Shown here: in pieces, positions 2,080-54,714 of the stretch
Layout: each line of letters opens with the position of its first letter
Numbering within the stretch: position 1 is the first letter of the stretch
Assembly (NCBI GenBank): GCA_030549335.1
Contig: CM060183.1
Location: forward strand, 23,138,552 to 23,202,551
Reading direction: 5' to 3'
Length of the DNA: 64,000 nucleotides
Source: Pontederia crassipes
Lineage: Eukaryota; Streptophyta; Magnoliopsida; Commelinales; Pontederiaceae
The notes under the pieces: generated by a model
Told to the model about the DNA's origin: nothing
The model's input: only the letters and a program-made list of their open reading frames with translations
The model's database searches: none
Position numbers and translations under genes: made by a program

Positions 2080-4830
2080 TTTAGCATGAGCAATATCGTT
2101 GGAATTCGACTCCCAAATCCACACATCATCCTCAGCATGAGCATGAATATAAATGTTTGGGATGAGAGAAGCAAGATTAGAACCAAAGTAAAGATTTAAC
2201 AGATGCAAGTTCCATTGGAGATTCTAGATAAAAGTATCCACAGTAAGGTCGTTCAGAGAGAGATTCATGTTAATGTAAGTCGGCTTATGAGTAAGAGAGA
2301 TTAAAAATCCACAGATCAGAGTAGACAAGAGTGGTGGAGCCATGGTGGTCCGAACTAAGTCACAAGTAAGCTTCTAGCACCAAGAATCATGTTTATGAGT
2401 AAAACAAGTAATCCAAGGATGAATAGTGCCATATTTGTTAAGAATGAATTGTGCACATATGGAATGATGATTGTTCATAAGTCCCATTATACATTTAATT
2501 AACAGGACTGGTCGGACAAGTTTGAGATTATGAAGTCCAAGACCCCCATTTCATTTAAAGAGTAAAATTGTGTTCCAGTTGACAAGATGAGTACCATTGT
2601 TATCCCCATTAGAGTTCCAAAGAAAGGTCTGAGAGAAACGCTTGATAGTCTCCAGAATTATATTAGGTAGGTAGGTGGAGCTTAGATCATGAATGGGAAT
2701 AGAATTTATCACAGAATTAATGAGAGTTGTTTTTTCGGCATGATTGAGAAGCTTATTTTTCCAACCAATAATTTTTTAGGCAATACAATTAGTAATTCTA
2801 TGATGCTGTCGAGTAGGGATTAGCTTGTATGAGATGGAGACACCAAAATAGGAGAAAGGGAAGCTTCCAATTTTAAAATTTAAAATATTTGTGATCATAC
2901 GTCACCATTGAATGGAGAATTTTGGCGGAAAGAAAATCTCGAATTTATTAGGATTAATCCATTGATTAGTTAAGTGCCCATAGAGCTGGAGGATATGTTT
3001 TAACCTAGAGGAATTTATTTTTGTTCCTGCAATAATAATCAACATATCATCAGCAAATAGTAAGTGACTAAGCATGAATGACCCGATAGAGAATGGAATT
3101 ATCTGATTACTGGCAGTAGCCTGTTTCATGAGGGATGAAAAAAACTTGAGATGTAAGGGTAAACAGATAGGGGGAGATAGGATCCTCCTGTCTAATTCCC
3201 CGATGACTGCAAAATTGAGAAAAATCAGTACCATTGATATAGCATGAGAATACAGGGGATTGAATACAAGCCGTTGTCCAACCAATAAATTGGGTCGAAA
3301 ATTGCATAATGGTAAAAACTTTGATTATGGCATCCCAGGAGATCATATCAAAAGCCTAGTTTATATCTGCCTTAATGATGATGTGTTTCCTACGACCCTT
3401 GGTGATCGAGTGAGTAAGTTTTTGGGCCATTAATATATTATCATGTACGGACCTATTAGGAATAAAAGCAGACCGTTCCTCATCGACAAGGATATTAAGA
3501 ACAAGTTTAATCCTAGCAGAGATAATTTTGGATATGATTCGATAAAGAACGTTACATAGTGCAATGGGTTGATATTCATTTAGGATTAGGTTTCTTCGGA
3601 ATAAACATGAGACACGTATGGGTAAGGTCGACAGGAATATGACCGGTGCGAAAGAAGGAGATGATAACCTGTGTGATTTCATTACCAATGACATCCCAAT
3701 ATTCTTTATAAAATTCGGTGGTGAACCCATCCGAACCCGGAGCACGTTCAGGTTTCATGTTCCATAGAGTATTCTTGACTCCGTAGGAGTAACAGGGGTA
3801 GTAAGGGTAGTAGAAAGAGTGGGTAGATCAGGCCAATGAGCAATGTAAATCACTGGTCAATCAAACCGTTGCCAAAGAGTTCGATAGTGATGCACAAAAA
3901 AGTTCATAATATTGTTCTCATTTGTGATGGCGGTACCATTGATGTCTTGAACACTAGACATGTGATTAGATTTATGCCTTATCATAGTGGCAGCATGAAA
4001 GAAGGAAGTATTCATGTGACCATGCTTAAGCCAGTTAATGCGCGATTTGCTCCACCATTTGATAGAGATCTACTGGTGGAGGGCAGCATGTCGATGGTAA
4101 GCAATCGCAATTGGTCAACTTCCCTATCCGAGAGTCCAAAAGTAGAATCCTTATGCTCTAATTTATAAATTTGGTGCTCAACATTAGATGAGTTTTTTTT
4201 TTCTAAATTTTCTAAGACATCGTTATTCCAAGTTAAGGTCTGCTTTCTAATTTTACTAAGAGCTTGTGTGATAAATCTCCTAGGGTGCTGAGGGGTCCAC
4301 TCACGTGTAACAATGTTCCTAGGTTCGGAGTAATCAAATAAAAAATGTCCATACTTGAAACCCCTAGGTTTATGCCTCCGAGAACTAGTGGTGAGAAGTA
4401 GGGGTTGTAATCAGATACACATCGGAGGAGGGTGGTAAGCGATAGATTGAGTAAACCAATGATGACTACAGAGCGTCTGGTCAAGGCGACAGAGTATTCA
4501 GGCATGTCCCCGATGATTATTACACAAAGTAAATTGATTGCCAGCAAGGGGAAGGTCTAAGAGTCCTTGTACATGCATCAGATTAGCTAAGCTAGAAATG
4601 GATATAGTCTGCCGGAAAGCGGTACCCCCACGCTTATCAAATGGGACAAGGATAGAGTTGAAATCACCTATGACAATCCATGGAATATCATCCAGAGGTA
4701 GAGAGGAGAGGTCTTGTCAAAGTAAATCAAGAAATACTTGGGGAGCAATTAGCATAGATAGCAGGCAATAAAAAAGAAAAGTTATCAATCATAATAATGA
4801 TATCATTAAGCATAAGTATGCATCCTCACT
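2080..4830 (-). mobile_element. L1-type non-LTR retrotransposon (LINE) ORF2 remnant, interrupted by the copia element
   Basis: On the minus strand the fragments follow LINE ORF2 order. First is the endonuclease C-terminal half (WIVIGDFNSI near 4690 and LPLAGNQFTL near 4550). Next is the linker around INWLKHGHMNTSFFHAAT near 4040. Then come reverse transcriptase blocks (APGSDGFTTEFYKEYWDVIG near 3740, ERSAFIPNRSVHDNILMAQK near 3470, FADDML near 3040), and a zf-RVT-like DDVWIWES near 2130. Frames change repeatedly and stops are present. The 5' end is missing before about 4830 and the 3' end lies beyond the nested copia element, left of the window. Confidence 0.85.
2902..3758 (-). pseudogene. 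LINE reverse transcriptase domain, frameshifted
   Basis: The reverse transcriptase fingers and palm are recognisable from PERAPGSDGFTTEFYKEY through IALCNVLYRIISKIISARIK, NRSVHDNILMAQKL and RQEDPISPYLFTL to SHLLFADDMLII. The F-A-D-D box carries the catalytic aspartates used for target-primed reverse transcription. The blocks are spread over three frames with at least three shifts and a stop near 3360, so the protein cannot be made. Confidence 0.85.
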
Positions 4831-6403: not shown

Positions 6404-8479
6404 GGGCTTCTTCGAGATGAGATCGAACGAGAATCCATTCTCCTGCAGGCGCTTCTGGAGGTCCGTGGGTCCGAAGACGAAGCCCGGGGTGAAGACGCCG
6501 CCTTTAGGCAGGTTGGAGCGCTCCTTGAGCAGAACCATGGCGCACTGGATGAGGATGATCGGAGTGGCCACGTACCCAACCTCGGGGCCCGACACTCTCG
6601 TGATTATCTCGGTGTCCGGCTTGTTGCCCCTCCCCGAGGCCAACTTGGCGTCGCTGTAGCCGTGGCCAACGAACCACATCTTGAACGAAGCGCTCGCGAC
6701 CTCCTCCTCGGTCGGCCCCGTCTTCCTGAACCACCCCAGAGAAAATATCTCCGGGAACCTCAAGAGCAGCGATCTGCCGACGGCGAAGGCCCCGAGGAGG
6801 CCGATGAACAGACCGGTGAAGATGAATTGGAGGAGCCCCAGCATGTTTCTGACTGCGATCTTCACGCCGAAGTGGGCAGGCTTTATCGATGACCAGAAGG
6901 ACTTCCGGCGCTCAGCGTGCTCTTCGCTCTCGTCGATGCCTGGAAGGCCCCCCGGATGCTCCGCCAGCAGCGCGAACGTTCTCCGCACGACGACGGAATC
7001 TGCAGACGGCAACTTCAGTGCCCAAACTCCTAGACTCTTGTTCTGTTCTATCAACGAACCTTTTGGAGGCGGGGGACCTGGAATCTGCAACCACCCGCAG
7101 TGAAGAAATATCATTCAGTTTCTGCAATATTGCATTCTCATGATCCATAAAGAAAAAATAAAACTAATGTATCAAATCACGTTTTTTTTCTCTATCAATT
7201 ATCTTCATTATATTAAATTTCATTTAAACGCATTCAAAATTAATTTATAGATTCAATTTTTCATAAAAAAAAAATCAATAGTTGGGGAGTGAGTGAAGCA
7301 TACCAATGTTTTTGACATTAGAACCTTTCTTTCGATGAACAAAGAGGCGAAGTTAATTTGTGTCTAGATTCTAAGCTAATTCAACACCAAACACTCGAAG
7401 AAACATCAAATTTCCGTCGAAAGATGATGATGCATCACGCAGTTGCTTAAATTAGTATATCAACGTCTCTTATCATGTTTCAAAGCAAAAGCTGTGTTCC
7501 TTTCCGGTGGCCGATAGGAAGATCCCATTAATCTATGACTACAAGTCTACCTTTGATCTTAAATTTTCGAAAATTATTTCTAGATTTTCATGAATACACA
7601 AAAGTTCTACTTGAAAATGATTAAAAAGATATACATATTAACTAATTAACATTTGAATGAAAATGCTGTGTAAACTTTCTTGGATATTAAATTGTTCTGT
7701 GCATCAACTTAGAACTACTTGATAATGCACTACCATCAGTGACCCATTTAAACAAGCAGTAGTGAACAGTGGACACTGAATCAGGAACAATGAACAGGGT
7801 ATGATGGACTCACCACGGGCCGAGCCCTCTTTGGCCTGGACTTCCTGAGCTGCTGTAGCTGAGCGGCATTGGCGACGCCGAGCACGGCTGACTCGTAGGT
7901 TCCCACGTTCCCCGCGATCCTCTTGTCCGACTGCAAGCTCAAGTATGCCTCCACCCTGCTTGGAGCTGCTGGCGTTAGCCATAACTGGGAGTTGAACATA
8001 ACCCCCAGCTCCGCAGGCACGGAGTCGAACCCGCACGCCGAGATCACCAAAGAGCCCGCCTCCGCACCCCCCTCGTGGTACTTGGCCTCCATCCGCTCCA
8101 TGAACTCCGGCTCCCCGCAGATGTCGAGGTAGTCTGTGCCTGCCTCGACGCAGGCGGCGACGACGGGCTCGCCGTAGAGGCGGAACGGCCCGGCGCAGTC
8201 GAGGAGGACGCGGCAGCGCTGGCAGAGAGCGACCAGGGAGGCACGATCTGAGACGTCGGCGGTGACGATGGGGAGAAGCGGCGGATCGGCGCCCGCGGCG
8301 GCCCAGCGGAGGGCAGCGGAGATCTTGGATTTGCTGCGCCCGGCGAGGGCGATGGTCTTGATGGGGGAAGAAGGATCGACGGTGGAGAGAAATTTTAGGG
8401 CCTCCCGGATGACGTACTTCCCCGTGAAGCCCGAGGCGCCGAAGATGACGACGTCGAACTCTCGGGGCCCGGACGCCAT
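6389..8479 (-). CDS. Saccharopine dehydrogenase-like oxidoreductase (At5g39410-like), two exons
   Basis: Exon 1 is 8479-7814 and exon 2 is 7084-6389, joined in phase 0 by a GTGAGT..GCAG intron (7813-7085). The product is 453 aa, matching the roughly 450-aa plant family. Residues 10-24 form a Rossmann NAD(P)-binding start with the G-A-S-G-F-T-G loop. DYLDICGEPEFMERM follows mid-way in exon 1. A strongly hydrophobic segment at about 303-325 could be a membrane or lipid-surface anchor. The family is annotated as saccharopine dehydrogenase-like, but plant members are not shown to cleave saccharopine and the substrate is unknown. An upstream in-frame GTG at 8515 was not used because the ATG at 8479 opens MASGPREFDVVIFGASG directly before the conserved fold. 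Exon 1 is far richer in GC than its surroundings. No defect is seen. Confidence 0.95.
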
Positions 8480-8609: not shown

Positions 8610-9043
8610 GGCGACTGGTGGACCGGTGGTGTTTGTTCTATGCTCGGCGTGTGATGTCGTTGCAGTGGACACGTGGCGTGCGTGTAAGACGACAATTCCG
8701 AGGTCTTAACTCAAACTCTTAAATAACGGTCGGTGCAACTGTCACATACCGATTTATTACATGTTCCCAATACCAAAGTTAATTATTATTATATAAGTTT
8801 TAGGATTATTTTCATAAATCATTCCTAAATTAACTTTAAACTACGAACTTATTTTTTTAATTCTTCAACTATCACGATTTTTTCAATTTGATTCTTCCGT
8901 CAACTTTTCTGTTATCTTTAATTTTTTTATTTATGAAAAGTTGAAAGTATCTCTCCAACATTAAGTCGAAAATATCCCTCCAACATTAATTTAAAAAGAT
9001 AATAACAAAGCCCCACGCCAGCGAGGTGTGTGTGTGTGTGGGT

Positions 9044-9059
9044 GGGGGGGGGGGGGGGG
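9044..9059 (+). repeat. G16 homopolymer after a (GT)n run
   Basis: A TG dinucleotide run is followed by sixteen consecutive G. It lies in the presumed leader of the captured SRC2 fragment. The exact length may be a sequencing or assembly estimate. Confidence 0.9.
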
Positions 9060-9141
9060 AGTGTCGCGCCCCGCTCAGCGAGAGAGGGCTCCCCCGACCT
9101 TCTAGCGACCGCCGATCGCAGTGCACCCCAACCCTCCAATC

Positions 9142-9480
9142 ATGTCGTATAGGACCTTGGGGAGCTGACACTGATCTCCACAAAGGACATCAGCGACGTC
9201 AACGTTGTGGCCTCCATCGCCGGCGACGACCAATCGCAACGCACCCCGACCGACAAGGACAGCGGCAAGAGCCCCTCGTGGCATTCCACGTTCGCTTCAC
9301 CATCCACACGGACCCTACCGCTGCCTCCAACATGTCTACCATCGCCTCATCTTCCAGATCCCCCTTTGATCTGAGCGCACCCTCGACGATCACGACATCG
9401 GCGAGGTCCACGTCCCATTGAACGAGCTCCTGGACGCGAGCGGCGTCTCCGACAGGAAGCGGTTTGCTAGCTACCAGGTG
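9142..9480 (+). pseudogene. SRC2-type C2-domain protein gene fragment, frameshifted
   Basis: The ATG at 9142 opens MSYRTL, the invariant start of plant SRC2 (soybean gene regulated by cold 2) C2-domain proteins. One extra base then shifts the frame. Corrected in the reader's mind, the sequence continues ELTLISTKDISDVNV, then after a gap VASIAGDDQSQRTPTDKD and GKSPSWHSTF. A further shift near 9350-9390 leads to DIGEVHVPLNELLD and KRFASYQV. These are the first calcium- and membrane-binding C2 segments in order. The Ala/Gly/Pro-rich tail of real SRC2 proteins is absent. It lies between long inverted repeats, so it is best read as a captured fragment. Confidence 0.8.
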
Positions 9481-9842
9481 GGCAGAGAAAGAGGGAAAGA
9501 TAGGGGGATTTAGTGCCCACATTAGCACAAGGCTTTTACGAGGTTTTTTAATTGATGTTGAAGGGATATTTTTAACTTTTCATAAATGAGAAAAATTGAA
9601 GATAACAGAAAAATTGATAGAAATTGATGGAAGGATTAAATTAAAAAAATCGTGATAGTTTAGGAATAAAAAAAATAAGTTCATAGTTTGAAGTTAAACG
9701 TGAAAAATAGTGATAGTTTAGAAGTGGTTTATAAAAATAATTCTAAATTTTAAATGGAATCAGGTAGTGTTATTGATTGCCTTAAAAGTAGGTACGCTTT
9801 ATAAACTAAGTTAAAGGCTCTGTTATTTTGTGAAAACAAATA

Positions 9843-10443
9843 GGTTAAAATGGTTGTCATACGCATTAAGGGCGTATGACAACCATACGCCCGCTCGACA
9901 TACGTCCGATCTGATCGGACGGTAGGATGTTGAGCGCGCGTGAACCGACCTCTTAATGTGAAAGGGGGCCGGTACGTCTTCTTTTTTTCGTTTCACGATT
10001 GACTCCCGGTTCGACTTCTTTTTTTCGTTTCATGCTCGATATGAAAAGGTGGCCCCGATATCCTGTTCTGCGTGACTTGCGACGAGGTGAAATGTTGCGA
10101 CAGACGATCAACCCATCCTCCTTGTCGTTGAGTTTTCTTCCTCGATCCGATCGCATTTTCCCCTCACGCATTTGCCTTAGTTCATCTTCGCTTTTTTTTA
10201 GTCCATCCGACGAAGTAGCAGTGTGATCCGGGCGAGCGCGAAGGAATACGACTTACCGCCAATGAGCATTCTTCCTTTTTTTTCTTTCGCCTTTCACGCG
10301 CCTTCGACTTCACCACTTTTTGCCTTTGCCCAAAATCCTCTCCGATTTTTTCTATTTTCGATAGTAGATCGAGCGAAGGGTGATCCGCATTGATCGACGC
10401 ACGTGCCTGACTCCGCAATGAATGTATTATTATGGATTTACCC
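9843..10443. mobile_element. Possible non-autonomous Mutator-like element with subterminal hairpin
   Basis: The segment is GC-richer than its flanks and begins GGTTAAAATGG, close to the start of the element at 47664. Just inside this end is a perfect 14-bp inverted repeat (9851-9864 and 9872-9885, 7-base loop). A second, 9-bp palindrome at about 9905-9923 contains CGTCCGATC and its complement. The reverse complement of the right end begins GGGTAAATCC. No matching target-site duplication is visible, so the assignment is tentative. Confidence 0.35.
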
Positions 10444-16803: not shown

Positions 16804-19800
16804 TTAATCCTGAAGGCCAGAGGCAGGAACAAGTTGTGTTCTCTGCCGTCGGCACCGCCTTGTTGTCCTTCCCCAACCCTTTATGCTCCCATCTGTCTCT
16901 AAATCAGTAGGAGATGATTGCATTGGTGTGGGATTCACATGAACTTCTGCAATGGTGACAGCTAAGCTTCTTGGCTTCCTACCCCTTGTTTGGCAGTTTC
17001 TACCTGTGCCCCGCCTTCCAGAACAGGTATTCCTGGACTTGTTCGATGATTTTGGCAGCCCTCCAAGAGAATAAAGATCCTCTGCGACTTCCTGTCTCGA
17101 TAAAGATGCAATGGTCGGTAGGATATCCCGTTGGAAATCCTTTCGTTGCCTTCTTTTCCTTGCCTGGCCCCTTCGGTTCTTAGTGAAAAGCAGTGATGCA
17201 GTATGTTGGTCGTCATCTTGTGGCATCTCATATTCGTATGGCTTGCACAAATATTCATCTTCTTTGAGTTCTTCCAGCTTCAGTGTCATGGATTCGAACG
17301 AATCTGATCCATCATCATCTAACATCTTATTGTCACCACTTCCGTTACCTCTAGAATATCCTGTAATATCAGTGTTTGATGTAACTAGTTCAGCAAACCA
17401 ATGCAAAGAATCACATGATGCTGGAACCAATGGCCCAGAAACAACAGTAACTGAATTTTGTGCATCCCTTGACAAAGAGACAATTGTACTTGCTGCAACT
17501 CTTAGAGTCTCGTAAAGGTCAAATATATCCTTATGTGGGAAATCGATTGGTCCATCAAGGTGATTCATCTTCACAAGCTCAGCAGTAGTTGCGTTGTTGT
17601 GTTCCACTTCCACTGGTGCTTCAAGATCAATTTTGCAAGTCAGGTTATCAGTATTACATGCAAATGGAGCTGTTGAAGGAAGCTCTTCTCCGGTAACAGT
17701 TTTACCAGGAAAATATGTGTCATCAGTTGCTACTACAGAAGAGTTCAAATTGATGTCTTTTCTGTCAGCTATATTGCAATTTCTAGCCCCTTTTCCTTTC
17801 GGGGTGTATTTCTGGTTATCAGACAATGATTGCTTCTGATATTGAATAGCGTGTGTGTAACTGAATCTCTGCTGCATCTTATCATGTAAAGAAAAACTGA
17901 TAAATTCTTTATTGTTAGGGCTATGAGATATCTCATATCTTTGATTTTTGGACTCCTTAAGCTTAAAAGATGAAGTCGAGTTCTGCAGTGCACAAATGGA
18001 AATACCTTTATCCTTTTCTCCCACAGCAACACCAGGAGTGACATTTCCAGAATTAAAAACCTGTTGAGAATAAACTTTAGTGAAATCTGGATCCACTTGA
18101 GGATCACATCCTTTAACATGAGCATTCCGGTTAGTTGTTGGTTTTTTTAGCCAATGTAAAGCATCAAAACCTTCATGCTTTCCATTTAGCATTTCTTGAG
18201 CAGTAAGCCCAAACTGAATTGTGTTTGACATTTCTGAATTCAAATCAAGATCCTTTGCGCACTTGATGTCGACACACTGCAAACTCTTCAAACATTTTTG
18301 TGGCCCCTCACCGGAGTTTTCATATGTTGAATTAACCCCATCCTCATTGATGTTTGGCTTGTCAGTGTTCATTGCCAAAAGATGCATTGAAGGTGAAGAT
18401 TTGGATTCAAATGGAAAACAATGTCTAAAAGGATTTTCATGATACGAGGATTGGCTACCATTTTCATTGCGTGGTTGCAGATTCCCATTGCATTGGATTT
18501 TGCCACGCCCATTACTCTGGATAACTGAAGACTGGCCATTGCTCTGACTAGTGAAACATGGAAGTGCTTGAACAGCAATAGGAACATGGTTTATCTTGCC
18601 TGAAGTTTTCCAGAACGAATATGGCAGAGACGAAGTTGGATTCGTTGAGGAAGAAACATATGAGGGTTTATTGATTGTTTCTTCAGCAGTATGTTGGGAA
18701 TAATTTATTTTCAGGAGACTAGGATTTCTTCCTGTCATCTCATTAGCGGATACTTTTAACCCAAACCGTAAATCACTTTTGTTCTCATCAGGTAAATAAA
18801 TTTCGTGGGCCTTCTTTAGCTTAAGTTGTATTGATTCAGACGACATTGGATACTTCTCAGCATGAGTACCAGAGTCAAATGCATCAATAATACTTCTACA
18901 TGCCCCTGTAAACAATTCGACAAAAAGAATGTGCCATATCAGATAGAAAGTGATGCCAACTTTAGGATACATTGAACATTATTCACATGAGACAGTTAAA
19001 ATAAGCATAAGAAGAAGTCAACTATCAGATAACAAAAAAAATATTTAAAGAGGTCCTATATAATCAAACATAAAAGCAACAAAAAGGTAGAATAAATATG
19101 TCATTATTCTTGAATAAAACAGAAGATGGGAAAAGTTGCGCCTCAAACAAAGATATGAAAAGCAAAATATCATAAAGATGAACCTATTTATTAAAATGTA
19201 AAGGATCGAATAAATTTGAAAAGTTATATAGCTATATCAAATATCATTATGTATCTACCACAAATCTAAGTCATCCAAATCTTACCAGAATCATGCAACA
19301 GTGGCCATTGTCGTCTATGCTCCCTTTTATCTAAATCGAAATTGCTAGAGCAGGTCCCTTCTTCTTTGACTCGGCCTGTGAGAAAATCCCTTTGCAACGA
19401 GAAAAATTTTGATGTTGGAGTTGGACTTTTGTGACTATCCTCACTGTGAAATTTCAGATTGTTAGGCATACAAGAGCCCGAATCAGAAATTCCCTCACAT
19501 AAGTCATTACAAGGTTCGTTTAAGTCCGCCAAACCATGAAACAGTTGATCATCTTTTTGCTGCATATCAGATCTTTGGTTGTCTTTTCTGCAACTATGCA
19601 AATTGACAGTGGCAAGAGTCAAGTTAATTTCACTCTCAGGTGCAGCATCAGAATTTAAGTTAAGAAGATCCACACTGCTGATGCATGGTTCAGGATTCTG
19701 CTTCTCAGTCATGTCTGAATCATCACTTTCAATATATACATCAGCTGGAAGGCGAAGGTCAAATGTCCGTTTGCAAAACTTGGGATTTGGGTCCGTTAAC

Positions 19801-20636
19801 TTGTCGCTCTTAAAATGTTGTCCATTATCAGTTGAAGCTGGGATCTGTTGCATGCTGACTTCTTTCAGAAAATTTATGGCAGCCCTCTTGTCATCAGTGT
19901 CTGCCACATTTATGGAAGTGCAGTGATTCCTGACTGACAGTGGATGAGGTGAATGTAATGCCCTCTCACCAGCTTCAGGAGGCATTTGAGACGTAAACAT
20001 ACTTGCTTTAGGTGTATTAATGGGCCCACAAAATTTGTACGATCGTTTCCTCTTAAACACATCCATCATATCTTTTTGTACTCTATAAAGACGGTGGAGT
20101 TCGTAAACCTGGATAATAAAAGACAAAATTCATTGTAATATCAACTGTAATATATATAAATAACTTCGCAATGATGGAAAGAGGCTTAAACAATTGTTAT
20201 TGGTCATTCCAATATGTCTACCCAATGAGATAATACCTGATCTTTTTTCCATTGAGCATATGGTACAAAATTAAGATCTTAACTTAAGCCAATTACCCAA
20301 TGAGTAATCTCATAGAACTCCAAACCATTAACATAAAAGAAAATTTTATAGGAAGATAACTTCAAACACAAACATGTATATAACAAAGCAGGCTTGATCT
20401 TGCAAAATTACCTGTCTCCTGAATATGGCCTCATGCTCAAGCATTGTTCGTTTTAACATTTCTTTATCGTATTCTGAATACCCACTCATTGGTGTTGGCT
20501 TGATATCAAAGAACATCCGTCTCTTAAATGCTTCATCCTCATAATAGAGTGACTGGCTGTTGCTTGTGCCCTCATTAAGGTTCCTCGTCGGATAATATCT
20601 TGGCAGATAGCTTTCAAACTGCACTTTTGTTCCCAT
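16804..20636 (-). CDS. DUF863 family protein, 1049 aa, three coding exons
   Basis: Coding exons are 20636-20412 (225 nt), 20108-19286 (823 nt) and 18905-16804 (2102 nt). All introns have GT..AG ends and the frame closes (1050 codons with stop). The protein starts MGTKVQFESYLPRYYPTRNL and has YDKEMLKRTMLEHEAIFRRQ just before the first junction, followed by VYELHRLYRVQKDMM. This N-terminal signature is that of plant DUF863 proteins. Near 927-966 is the second conserved block, RRQRKDFQRDILPTIASLSR with QEVAEDLYSLGG. The C-terminus is basic and Arg-rich (GRKPRSLAV, TTRRCRRQRT), which would suit a nuclear protein. The middle is Ser/Asn-rich and probably disordered. Biochemical function is unknown. 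The ATG at 20636 lies two bases into its exon, after a long leader intron. Confidence 0.93.
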
Positions 20637-33631: not shown

Positions 33632-34197
33632 ATTTTCTAAATTAATGCCAAGGTCAGGCATCTGACATTGTGTGACAACCCAAACAATCTCGCATGCAGC
33701 CAATAAATTCGAAGAATGCATGCATGAATTATATAATAATATTTTTTTTTTTTACAAAAATGTATCATGTATAATAAATGGACGAATCATTCGTATTCAA
33801 ATCAAAAGGAATAATTTTGATAGTGTAATTAGTCAGCATTTAGACACGAGCATTAAAGTTAGAATCAATCTTAGTTTGCATTGATTACGACAAATACCCA
33901 TCTAAAACGTCTAATCATTATCGGAACAATTGAGTTTGATAATGGAAACATAATTTTTTTTACAGATTTTCTAATTTGATATATTAATTATGATGATGTT
34001 ATTTGTATAAAGGTACAGAAAAATGAAAATAATAACAGTAGAATTTTAAATGGAAATAATTAATTCTTTAAACATTCTATGAAATATAGTGATTTTCTAC
34101 ATATTCCTGAATTATAATTTTTACTTTATTTCATCACCCGCTTGCCACCTCCGGAGCTCGTGGAAGAGGAATTCAAGGACCGTGCTCTATTATCTAA

Positions 34198-34360
34198 GGG
34201 TCGTTTAAATGAAGAATAACTTTTGGAGAATAATAAATTTTATTCAAAAAGATATAATATCCTTATCATATTCTTATTCTACATTATGTTTCATGTGTTA
34301 AAGGAATAACTTTTAAATATATTATATTTTATAATTAAAATATTTTATTATAAACTTGAC

Positions 34361-34453
<93 letters not shown>

Positions 34454-34696
34454 AAAATATATGATTGAATTTTAAAAAAAATAAATAAAGATGAAAACGT
34501 TGAGAATACAGTTATTTCATCATTTTGATTGAATACAAATATTGCATTTTTGTGGAATATAACGGTGGTTTCACGATTTCCAATATGGTTTTACAAAAAA
34601 TGAAGTTTGACCAAGTTATTCTTATTCTGTTCGTGTTTGATCATATTCTCGAGATTATTGAGATATTCTCGCCTATAATCTAGAACCAAACGCCCC
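34198..34696. mobile_element. PIF/Harbinger (Tourist)-type MITE, 499 bp
   Basis: The left end GGGTCGTTTAAAT and the inverted right end GGGGCGTTTGGTT form a terminal inverted repeat of the Harbinger type. The element is flanked by the 3-bp duplication TAA (34195-34197 and 34697-34699), the signature target of this superfamily. It has no coding capacity and has acquired a long ATT microsatellite. Confidence 0.7.
34362..34450 (+). repeat. (ATT)29 microsatellite inside the MITE
   Basis: Roughly 87 bp of uninterrupted TTA/ATT units. Confidence 0.95.
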
Positions 34697-34699
34697 TAA

Positions 34700-35360
34700 A
34701 GGAGGAATCAACAGCCAACATTCCCTTCGAGTTCCATGCAACGCACCGAAGGGCACGGGCGATCGTTATGCACTGCGGTTGGAACTCTGTCATGGATGGT
34801 GTCGGTTGTGACTATGAGGTGCCGATGGTATGTCGTCCATTCTTCGTCAACCAATGGGTCAACGCCTGGGCCATATCGCATGTGTGAGAGGTTGGTGTCA
34901 ACATCACGGCAGTGTCTTCTCACACGCAAGGGTGCCGAAGGCCCTGGATATGTTGTTATGCGCCGAGGGCAGGAGGGGGATGAAGGGAGAGGCACAATCA
35001 GTTCCGAATGAAAGGCCCTTCTCTCCCACCGGTGCTAGCGAAGCTGTCGGAGGGCGAGGGGGCGCCCTTCCTCCGATGCGAGGCCATCAGAGGGAGAGAG
35101 GGGAGGAGGAGGGCAATGCCCCTAGTTTTAAAATTTTTATATTGTTTTATTATTTTAAAATATTAAAAGATAAGAAATCATATGGAAGGATATTTTAATC
35201 TTTTATAAATAAAAAAATGAAAAAATGAAAAAAATCAATAGAATGAGCCGGATTAACTCAAGTAAAAATCGTGATATAATTTAGGAACATTCTACGAAAA
35301 GTTTATATATTAGAGTTAAACGTAAAAAAATTGTAATAGTTAGTTTAAGGAACTAACCCT
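34700..35360. other. GC-rich unassigned fragment followed by one arm of the Pack-MULE-like repeat
   Basis: 34715-35120 is GC-rich with broken open frames on both strands and no family I recognise. From about 35160 to 35350 the sequence matches the right inverted-repeat arm of the 8792-9754 element (AAAATCGTGATA, AGAGTTAAACGTAAAAA). The opposite arm is not visible, so this may be half of a second gene-carrying element. Confidence 0.45.
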
Positions 35361-53756: not shown

Positions 53757-54714
53757 CTACCAGACCTTCCTTTCGCCAACAAGGCCCAATACGTCGTCCC
53801 AGAGCCCAACAGCGCCGACGCCGGCGAGCCCAATGACGCTGGGGCTGCAGGCGACGACCCGCCAGAACCCGGCCCTTATCTCCTCCCTGAGCTGGTCCTT
53901 CTCCCACCCGCAGTAGCCGTCGAAGAAGCGGAAGTCCCCGACGGCCGCCATGTTCCGCTTCACCATCTCCGCCGCGCACCCCACGCTCTCCCTGCTCCCG
54001 TAGTACAGCCCCTTCACCACCTCCTCGAACACCCCGCTCCTCCCCACCTCCCCCTCCTCCCCGCCTCCCCCTCCTTCCACCAGGAACAGGCCGTCCTCCA
54101 GCGGGCCGCCGAAGAACAGAGGCCGGTCGGAGAAGACGCCGGCCACGTCGAAGGCCGTCGACCGCGTCTCCTTTATCGACATCAGCGACGGCCGGTTAAG
54201 AATGATGCCCGTCGGGCCCGCCGGGCCGGTGGACAGCAGGAGGATCACGGCGCGCTCGAAGATGTGGACCCCGTCGAGCTTCTCGGTGGCGATGAGGAGG
54301 CAGCCCCTCTCCGGCTCGTGGATCGGGTGCGCCCACCTGTCGCCCAGCTGCACGGACGCCGGACTGCGGTCGAGCGACGCGCCGAGCGCGGCTGGAACGA
54401 TCGCCTGCTCCCCAGCCACGAGCCGCGCCCTGAAGGATCTCCAGTCGGACTGGATCACTAGCGGCTCGGAATTATCGTCGCCCGGAGCCTGCGGTTTGTT
54501 GCTGCAACCTGACAAGGTTAACGTATTGAGTGAGCGAGTGAGAGACAAAGAGGGGGGAGAGAGAGAGATGATACGAGCACTACTCACAAGTCACGACGAG
54601 GCCATGGCCGGCGAGTCTTTTCTTGTGTAAGAGAGGCAGCTTTGATCTGGAAGCTGGAACCACGTCCAGTACCTTGCTGAAGGAGTTGGAGGTGAGGAAA
54701 CAGGAGGCCTCCAT
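53757..54714 (-). CDS. UPF0301/DUF179 (AlgH-like) protein, probably plastid-targeted, two exons
   Basis: Exon 1 is 54714-54588 and exon 2 is 54508-53757, split after one base of a codon by a GTGAGT..GTCAG intron of 79 bp. The product is 292 aa. Residues 1-42 (MEASCFLTSNSFSKVLDVVP...) are Ser/Arg/Lys-rich without acids after the first residues, like a chloroplast transit peptide. The mature part has the family's blocks in order: GCLLIATEKLDG, GPTGIILNRPSL, PLFFGGPLEDG and GYCGWEKDQLREEIRAGFWR. The bacterial relatives include AlgH; the biochemical role in plants is unknown. The start was set at 54714 because an upstream in-frame GTG (54774) lies at the TATA box. Strongly GC-rich, and slightly shorter than other plant members I know of (about 315-325 aa). 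Confidence 0.93.

Follow-up and report, generated by a model that had tools for sequence, protein, structure and literature searches.

The 64-kb window (the whole stretch of DNA that was analyzed) carries, at positions 8803–9743, an element of 941 bp that is bounded by two inverted arms and has a GC-rich interior. It lies upstream of a saccharopine-dehydrogenase-like gene that is encoded on the minus strand (Pfam match, E 1.3e-12), at a distance of 323 bp from the likely ATG of this gene, which was placed at position 8479 by its reading frame. The features considered below are as follows:

8794..8802, no strand assigned: probable left target-site duplication, TAAGTTTTA, 8/9 identical to the right copy
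8803..9000, plus strand: left terminal inverted repeat, as aligned with the right arm
9001..9543, plus strand: interior of high GC content (0.61), from composition and sequence; TG-repeat and G-run tracts lie near 9025–9060
9142..9480, plus strand: captured 5′ part of a C2-domain gene, probably SRC2-type, from three-frame translation and the Pfam C2 match
9544..9743, minus strand: right terminal inverted repeat, as aligned with the left arm
9744..9752, no strand assigned: probable right target-site duplication, TAAATTTTA, 8/9 identical to the left copy
35178..35360, plus strand: lone arm of this family in diverged form, separate from the element, from BLAST, alignment score, and nhmmer

Several other genes and repeats are present in the same window, where a Pfam scan returned matches in six of the nine reading frames scanned. 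Fragments of a copia-type retrotransposon, comprising gag (E 4e-18) and the beta-barrel domain of pol (E 3.9e-31), reside at 618–1867 on the minus strand. The same strand carries part of a reverse transcriptase at 3356–3754 (RVT_1, E 3.4e-8). A non-LTR origin for the latter is possible, but this is a guess. Also on the minus strand are a gene for a DUF863 plant protein, which spans 16804–20129 in two reading-frame blocks, and a gene for an AlgH-like (DUF179) protein at 53757–54590. The DUF863 match (Pfam describes this family as a plant protein), together with the copia-type and reverse transcriptase fragments, points to plant nuclear DNA as the nature of the window. Just to the right of the element, at 9850–9886, there is a perfect 15-nt inverted repeat, ATGGTTGTCATACGC, with a 7-nt spacer.

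The arms of the element are 198 bp (left) and 200 bp (right) in length, and both are AT-rich (GC 0.24 and 0.22, respectively). When aligned over their full lengths, they are identical at 151 of 170 aligned columns (89% ungapped), with 58 gap columns that this figure leaves aside, whereas BLAST, which counts gaps, gives 79.9% identity over 154 columns. The gap columns comprise two stretches unique to the right arm (19 bp and 10 bp), an extra tandem copy of 25 bp in the left arm, and four single or end positions. The tandem duplication of the left arm joins 8938–8962 to 8963–8987, and its two copies are 88% identical. The left arm begins at 8803 with GGATTATTTTCATAAATC, and the right arm opens with GAATTATTTTTATAAACC when read inward from 9743. 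Both start with G, and their outermost bases align from the first position.

The best inverted local alignment between the arms scores 160. For comparison, 300 dinucleotide shuffles produced a mean score of 24.8 and a maximum of 36, and 404 real pairs of blocks with a fixed spacing elsewhere in the window reached at most 51. The inverted arms are real and far beyond chance. Thus, self-alignment of the window bears out the two inverted arms of about 200 bp described in the initial annotation, but the limits given there (8792–9754) prove to be 11 bp too wide on each side, where they take in the probable duplication. A search with the arm pattern against viral contigs gave 0 matches, a result that says little about a plant element.

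Directly outside the arms, TAAGTTTTA and TAAATTTTA agree at 8 of 9 positions. This match, which is AT-rich and nearly palindromic and contains one mismatch, is the best among the 125 combinations scanned (25 paired boundaries with five lengths, 7 to 11 bp), and 9 bp is the best length in this range. Among 5,000 shuffles of the flanks, an 8/9 match was reached in 0.08% at the fixed boundary and in 0.34% over seven boundaries, values that are optimistic because this control is narrower than the scan and the pair was first spotted by eye. A matched control that covered all 25 boundaries and lengths of 7 to 11 bp (5,000 shuffles) yielded a pair with at most one mismatch at a length of at least 8 bp in 6.1% of cases, and 20.6% of its shuffles satisfied the published tolerance for duplications. 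That tolerance, in the available text of the source, accepts up to two mismatches in duplications of 9 to 11 bp (PMC4858842), and the 9-bp pair with 8/9 identity falls within it. Because 6.1% of the matched shuffles equal or beat the observed match, the evidence from this pair is moderate, and we consider the pair a likely target-site duplication.

The region enclosed by the arms differs sharply in composition (GC 0.61). Within it, pieces of a C2-domain coding sequence that start with an ATG at 9142 can be followed through frames 1, 3, 2, and 1 as far as approximately 9480, and a TGA at 9367–9369 interrupts them in frame. The frameshifted gene start, including its start codon, is indeed present as first described. 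When a read-through was joined across the three frames, it matched the Pfam C2 profile with 25.2 bits (cut-off 22 bits) at profile positions 19–96 of 104, and its E value of 2e-5 is optimistic because the frames were picked by eye. Tested alone, one of the three pieces gave a subthreshold C2 match (14.2 bits, E 0.051), and the others had no match. On this domain match, we regard the captured fragment as a piece of a C2-domain gene, probably of the SRC2 type. The C2 portion of the initial assignment is therefore supported by Pfam on the joined read-through, and the narrower SRC2 label is a putative one, suggested by the N terminus typical of the SRC2 family.

Other searches of the element returned little. 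Three more open frames, two of which are antisense, were without a Pfam match; among them are the frame at 8990–9418 and the longest ATG frame of the element, which has 107 codons and is antisense. In all, six interior reading-frame pieces from both strands included no Pfam match to a transposase; one gave a weak C2 match and five were matchless. Local alignment detected no second copy of the interior within the 64-kb window. The single match among solved structures, a Nep1-like protein with an E value of 0.25, was taken as chance.

According to the available text of one report (PMC12989361), introns are absent from 13 of the 15 SRC2-like genes of maize. Since such genes mostly lack introns in that species, an intronless fragment is expected and is by itself no sign of a retrocopy. 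Decay by methylation was also considered. The ratio of observed to expected CpG is 1.09 in 9061–9480 and 0.90 in the whole interior, compared to 1.01 and 1.00 in two neighboring exon stretches. CpG depletion is not clear in either region, and we therefore derive no age from it.

Given these characteristics, the element is very likely a nonautonomous Mutator-like DNA transposon (MULE) of the Pack-MULE kind, with a decayed C2 fragment that most likely has no role as a protein. This agrees with the Pack-MULE-like reading proposed at the outset. MULEs typically have terminal inverted repeats of 100 to 500 bp (PMC3310237, in its available text), a range that includes the 198- and 200-bp arms found here. 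They also produce target-site duplications, commonly of 9 to 11 bp and reported as about 8 to 11 bp, and their nonautonomous members carry GC-rich pieces of genes (available portions of PMC3310237 and PMC4858842). The 9-bp flanking match conforms to this pattern moderately, at 8 of 9 positions. The features that distinguish a Pack-MULE are a host gene fragment, seen here in the joined read-through that exceeds the C2 cut-off, and the lack of a transposase, as found in the six interior pieces scanned.

From the arms, their outer ends, the 8/9 flanking match, and the broken C2 fragment, all of which are directly observed, we infer movement by a transposase supplied from elsewhere. Such an enzyme, presumably of the MULE type, would have bound the arms and inserted the element through staggered cleavage of an AT-rich target, 9 bp of which were thereby duplicated. 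Prior to the present insertion, the arms would have come to enclose the captured GC-rich 5′ end of a C2-domain gene. The frame changes and the stop codon could have arisen by decay since that insertion, or the copy may have been broken already at capture. Because of these frame changes and the stop, the fragment cannot encode a C2 domain. It is thus most likely without function as a protein, and the element as a whole is most likely a decaying passenger.

The layout of this element resembles that of PM-ZIBP-1, a Pack-MULE from tomato listed by Ferguson and Jiang in 2012 (PMC3310237, Table 5). On the entries available for it, PM-ZIBP-1 is 944 bp in length compared to 941 bp here, its arms are 87% identical compared to 89% over ungapped columns (151/170), its duplication TTTTAAATT is likewise an AT-rich 9-bp sequence, and a host gene fragment lies inside both elements. 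However, the cargo of PM-ZIBP-1 derives from a gene for a putative zinc-ion binding protein, and the likeness concerns the layout. Rice Pack-MULEs, of which about 3,000 are described in the available text of PMC4858842 and PMC8903248, also capture GC-rich gene sequences between their arms, as is the case here. In the literature searched, no paper combined Pack-MULE and SRC2, and among the matches listed for Pack-MULE in Musa and for Mutator in banana, no title concerned the present element. The captured gene may be new, but the kind of element is well known, and this copy looks ordinary. The locus illustrates gene-fragment capture neatly, its ends being well placed, and it adds to the examples consistent with the reported preference of Pack-MULEs for GC-rich gene sequences. 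A new principle would arise only if transcription or small RNAs were found.

Two other origins could be proposed for the same arrangement. One possibility is that a single short arm sequence inserted twice, independently and in opposite orientation, and by chance came to flank a degraded gene copy. Arms can occur singly, as indicated by the lone family member at 35178–35360, whose partner was not found, and the shared duplication could be a product of chance at the frequency seen in the matched shuffles (6.1%). However, the flanking match is joint to both outer ends of the element, and the alignment of the two arms extends to their very first bases. In the stretches scanned, neither arm has a flanking duplication of its own (best matches 6/9 and 5/9), which counts against two separate insertions, and we consider this origin highly improbable. 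Alternatively, an inverted-repeat transposon of another kind (hAT, foldback, or unclassified) might have captured the fragment, given that the element matched no transposase and no known MULE end and that its duplication, besides being imperfect, is of only moderate significance. Against this stands the best duplication length among the 7 to 11 bp scanned, which is 9 bp, whereas the available text of PMC8903248 gives 8 bp for the hAT elements that were identified in rice and maize. Moreover, most DNA transposons have arms of less than 50 bp (PMC3310237, in its available text), in contrast to the longer arms of MULEs. Therefore, another transposon kind is an unlikely source.

A further possibility is compatible with the anatomy of a Pack-MULE and differs in granting the element a function. 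Specifically, the arms could drive a transcript whose hairpin gives rise to small RNAs directed against the parental C2 gene. Alternatively, the insertion could alter or regulate the saccharopine-dehydrogenase-like gene, whose likely ATG (8479) is 323 bp away. The whole element is predicted to fold through its arms at −365.4 kcal/mol (z −15.5), and 0 of 20 shuffles were as low. In addition, captured sequences can serve as sources of siRNAs in maize, as stated in the available text of PMC13317346. However, any long inverted repeat would fold likewise. A silencing role for a putative hairpin transcript is possible, but we regard a functional Pack-MULE as unlikely on the whole and favor the decaying passenger described above.

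One further arm of this family, diverged in sequence, was identified within the 64-kb window at 35178–35360. It matches the right arm with 72.7% identity over 161 columns by BLAST, and its alignment score of 132 exceeds the background maximum of 78 that blocks away from the two loci reached in a set of 1,278 block-strand comparisons. Profile searches built from single sequences are less sure of this arm than is the alignment score: nhmmer lists it with E 0.0079 when the right arm serves as the query and with E 0.092 in reverse, and does not list it with the left arm as the query. A GC-rich stretch (34700–35125, GC 0.58) adjoins the arm, and the second single arm beside a GC-rich fragment that had been noticed near 35 kb is thereby upheld.

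No opposite arm was found for this copy, and we therefore consider the locus to be a relic or a truncated element rather than a second complete Pack-MULE. A search for a left partner in 33700–34195 assumed that a later insertion at about 34200–34700 had displaced the left arm. The candidate at 34062–34135 was rejected, as its inverted score of 48 was equaled by 86 of 237 other blocks. Likewise, the inverted ends of the supposed later insertion are weak (34 identities, 10 mismatches, and 4 gaps), and a profile match at 34093–34139 on the minus strand (E 1.2) was not accepted as real. A microsatellite of pure ATT/TTA repeats, about 89 bp long, occupies 34362–34450 in the same part of the window.
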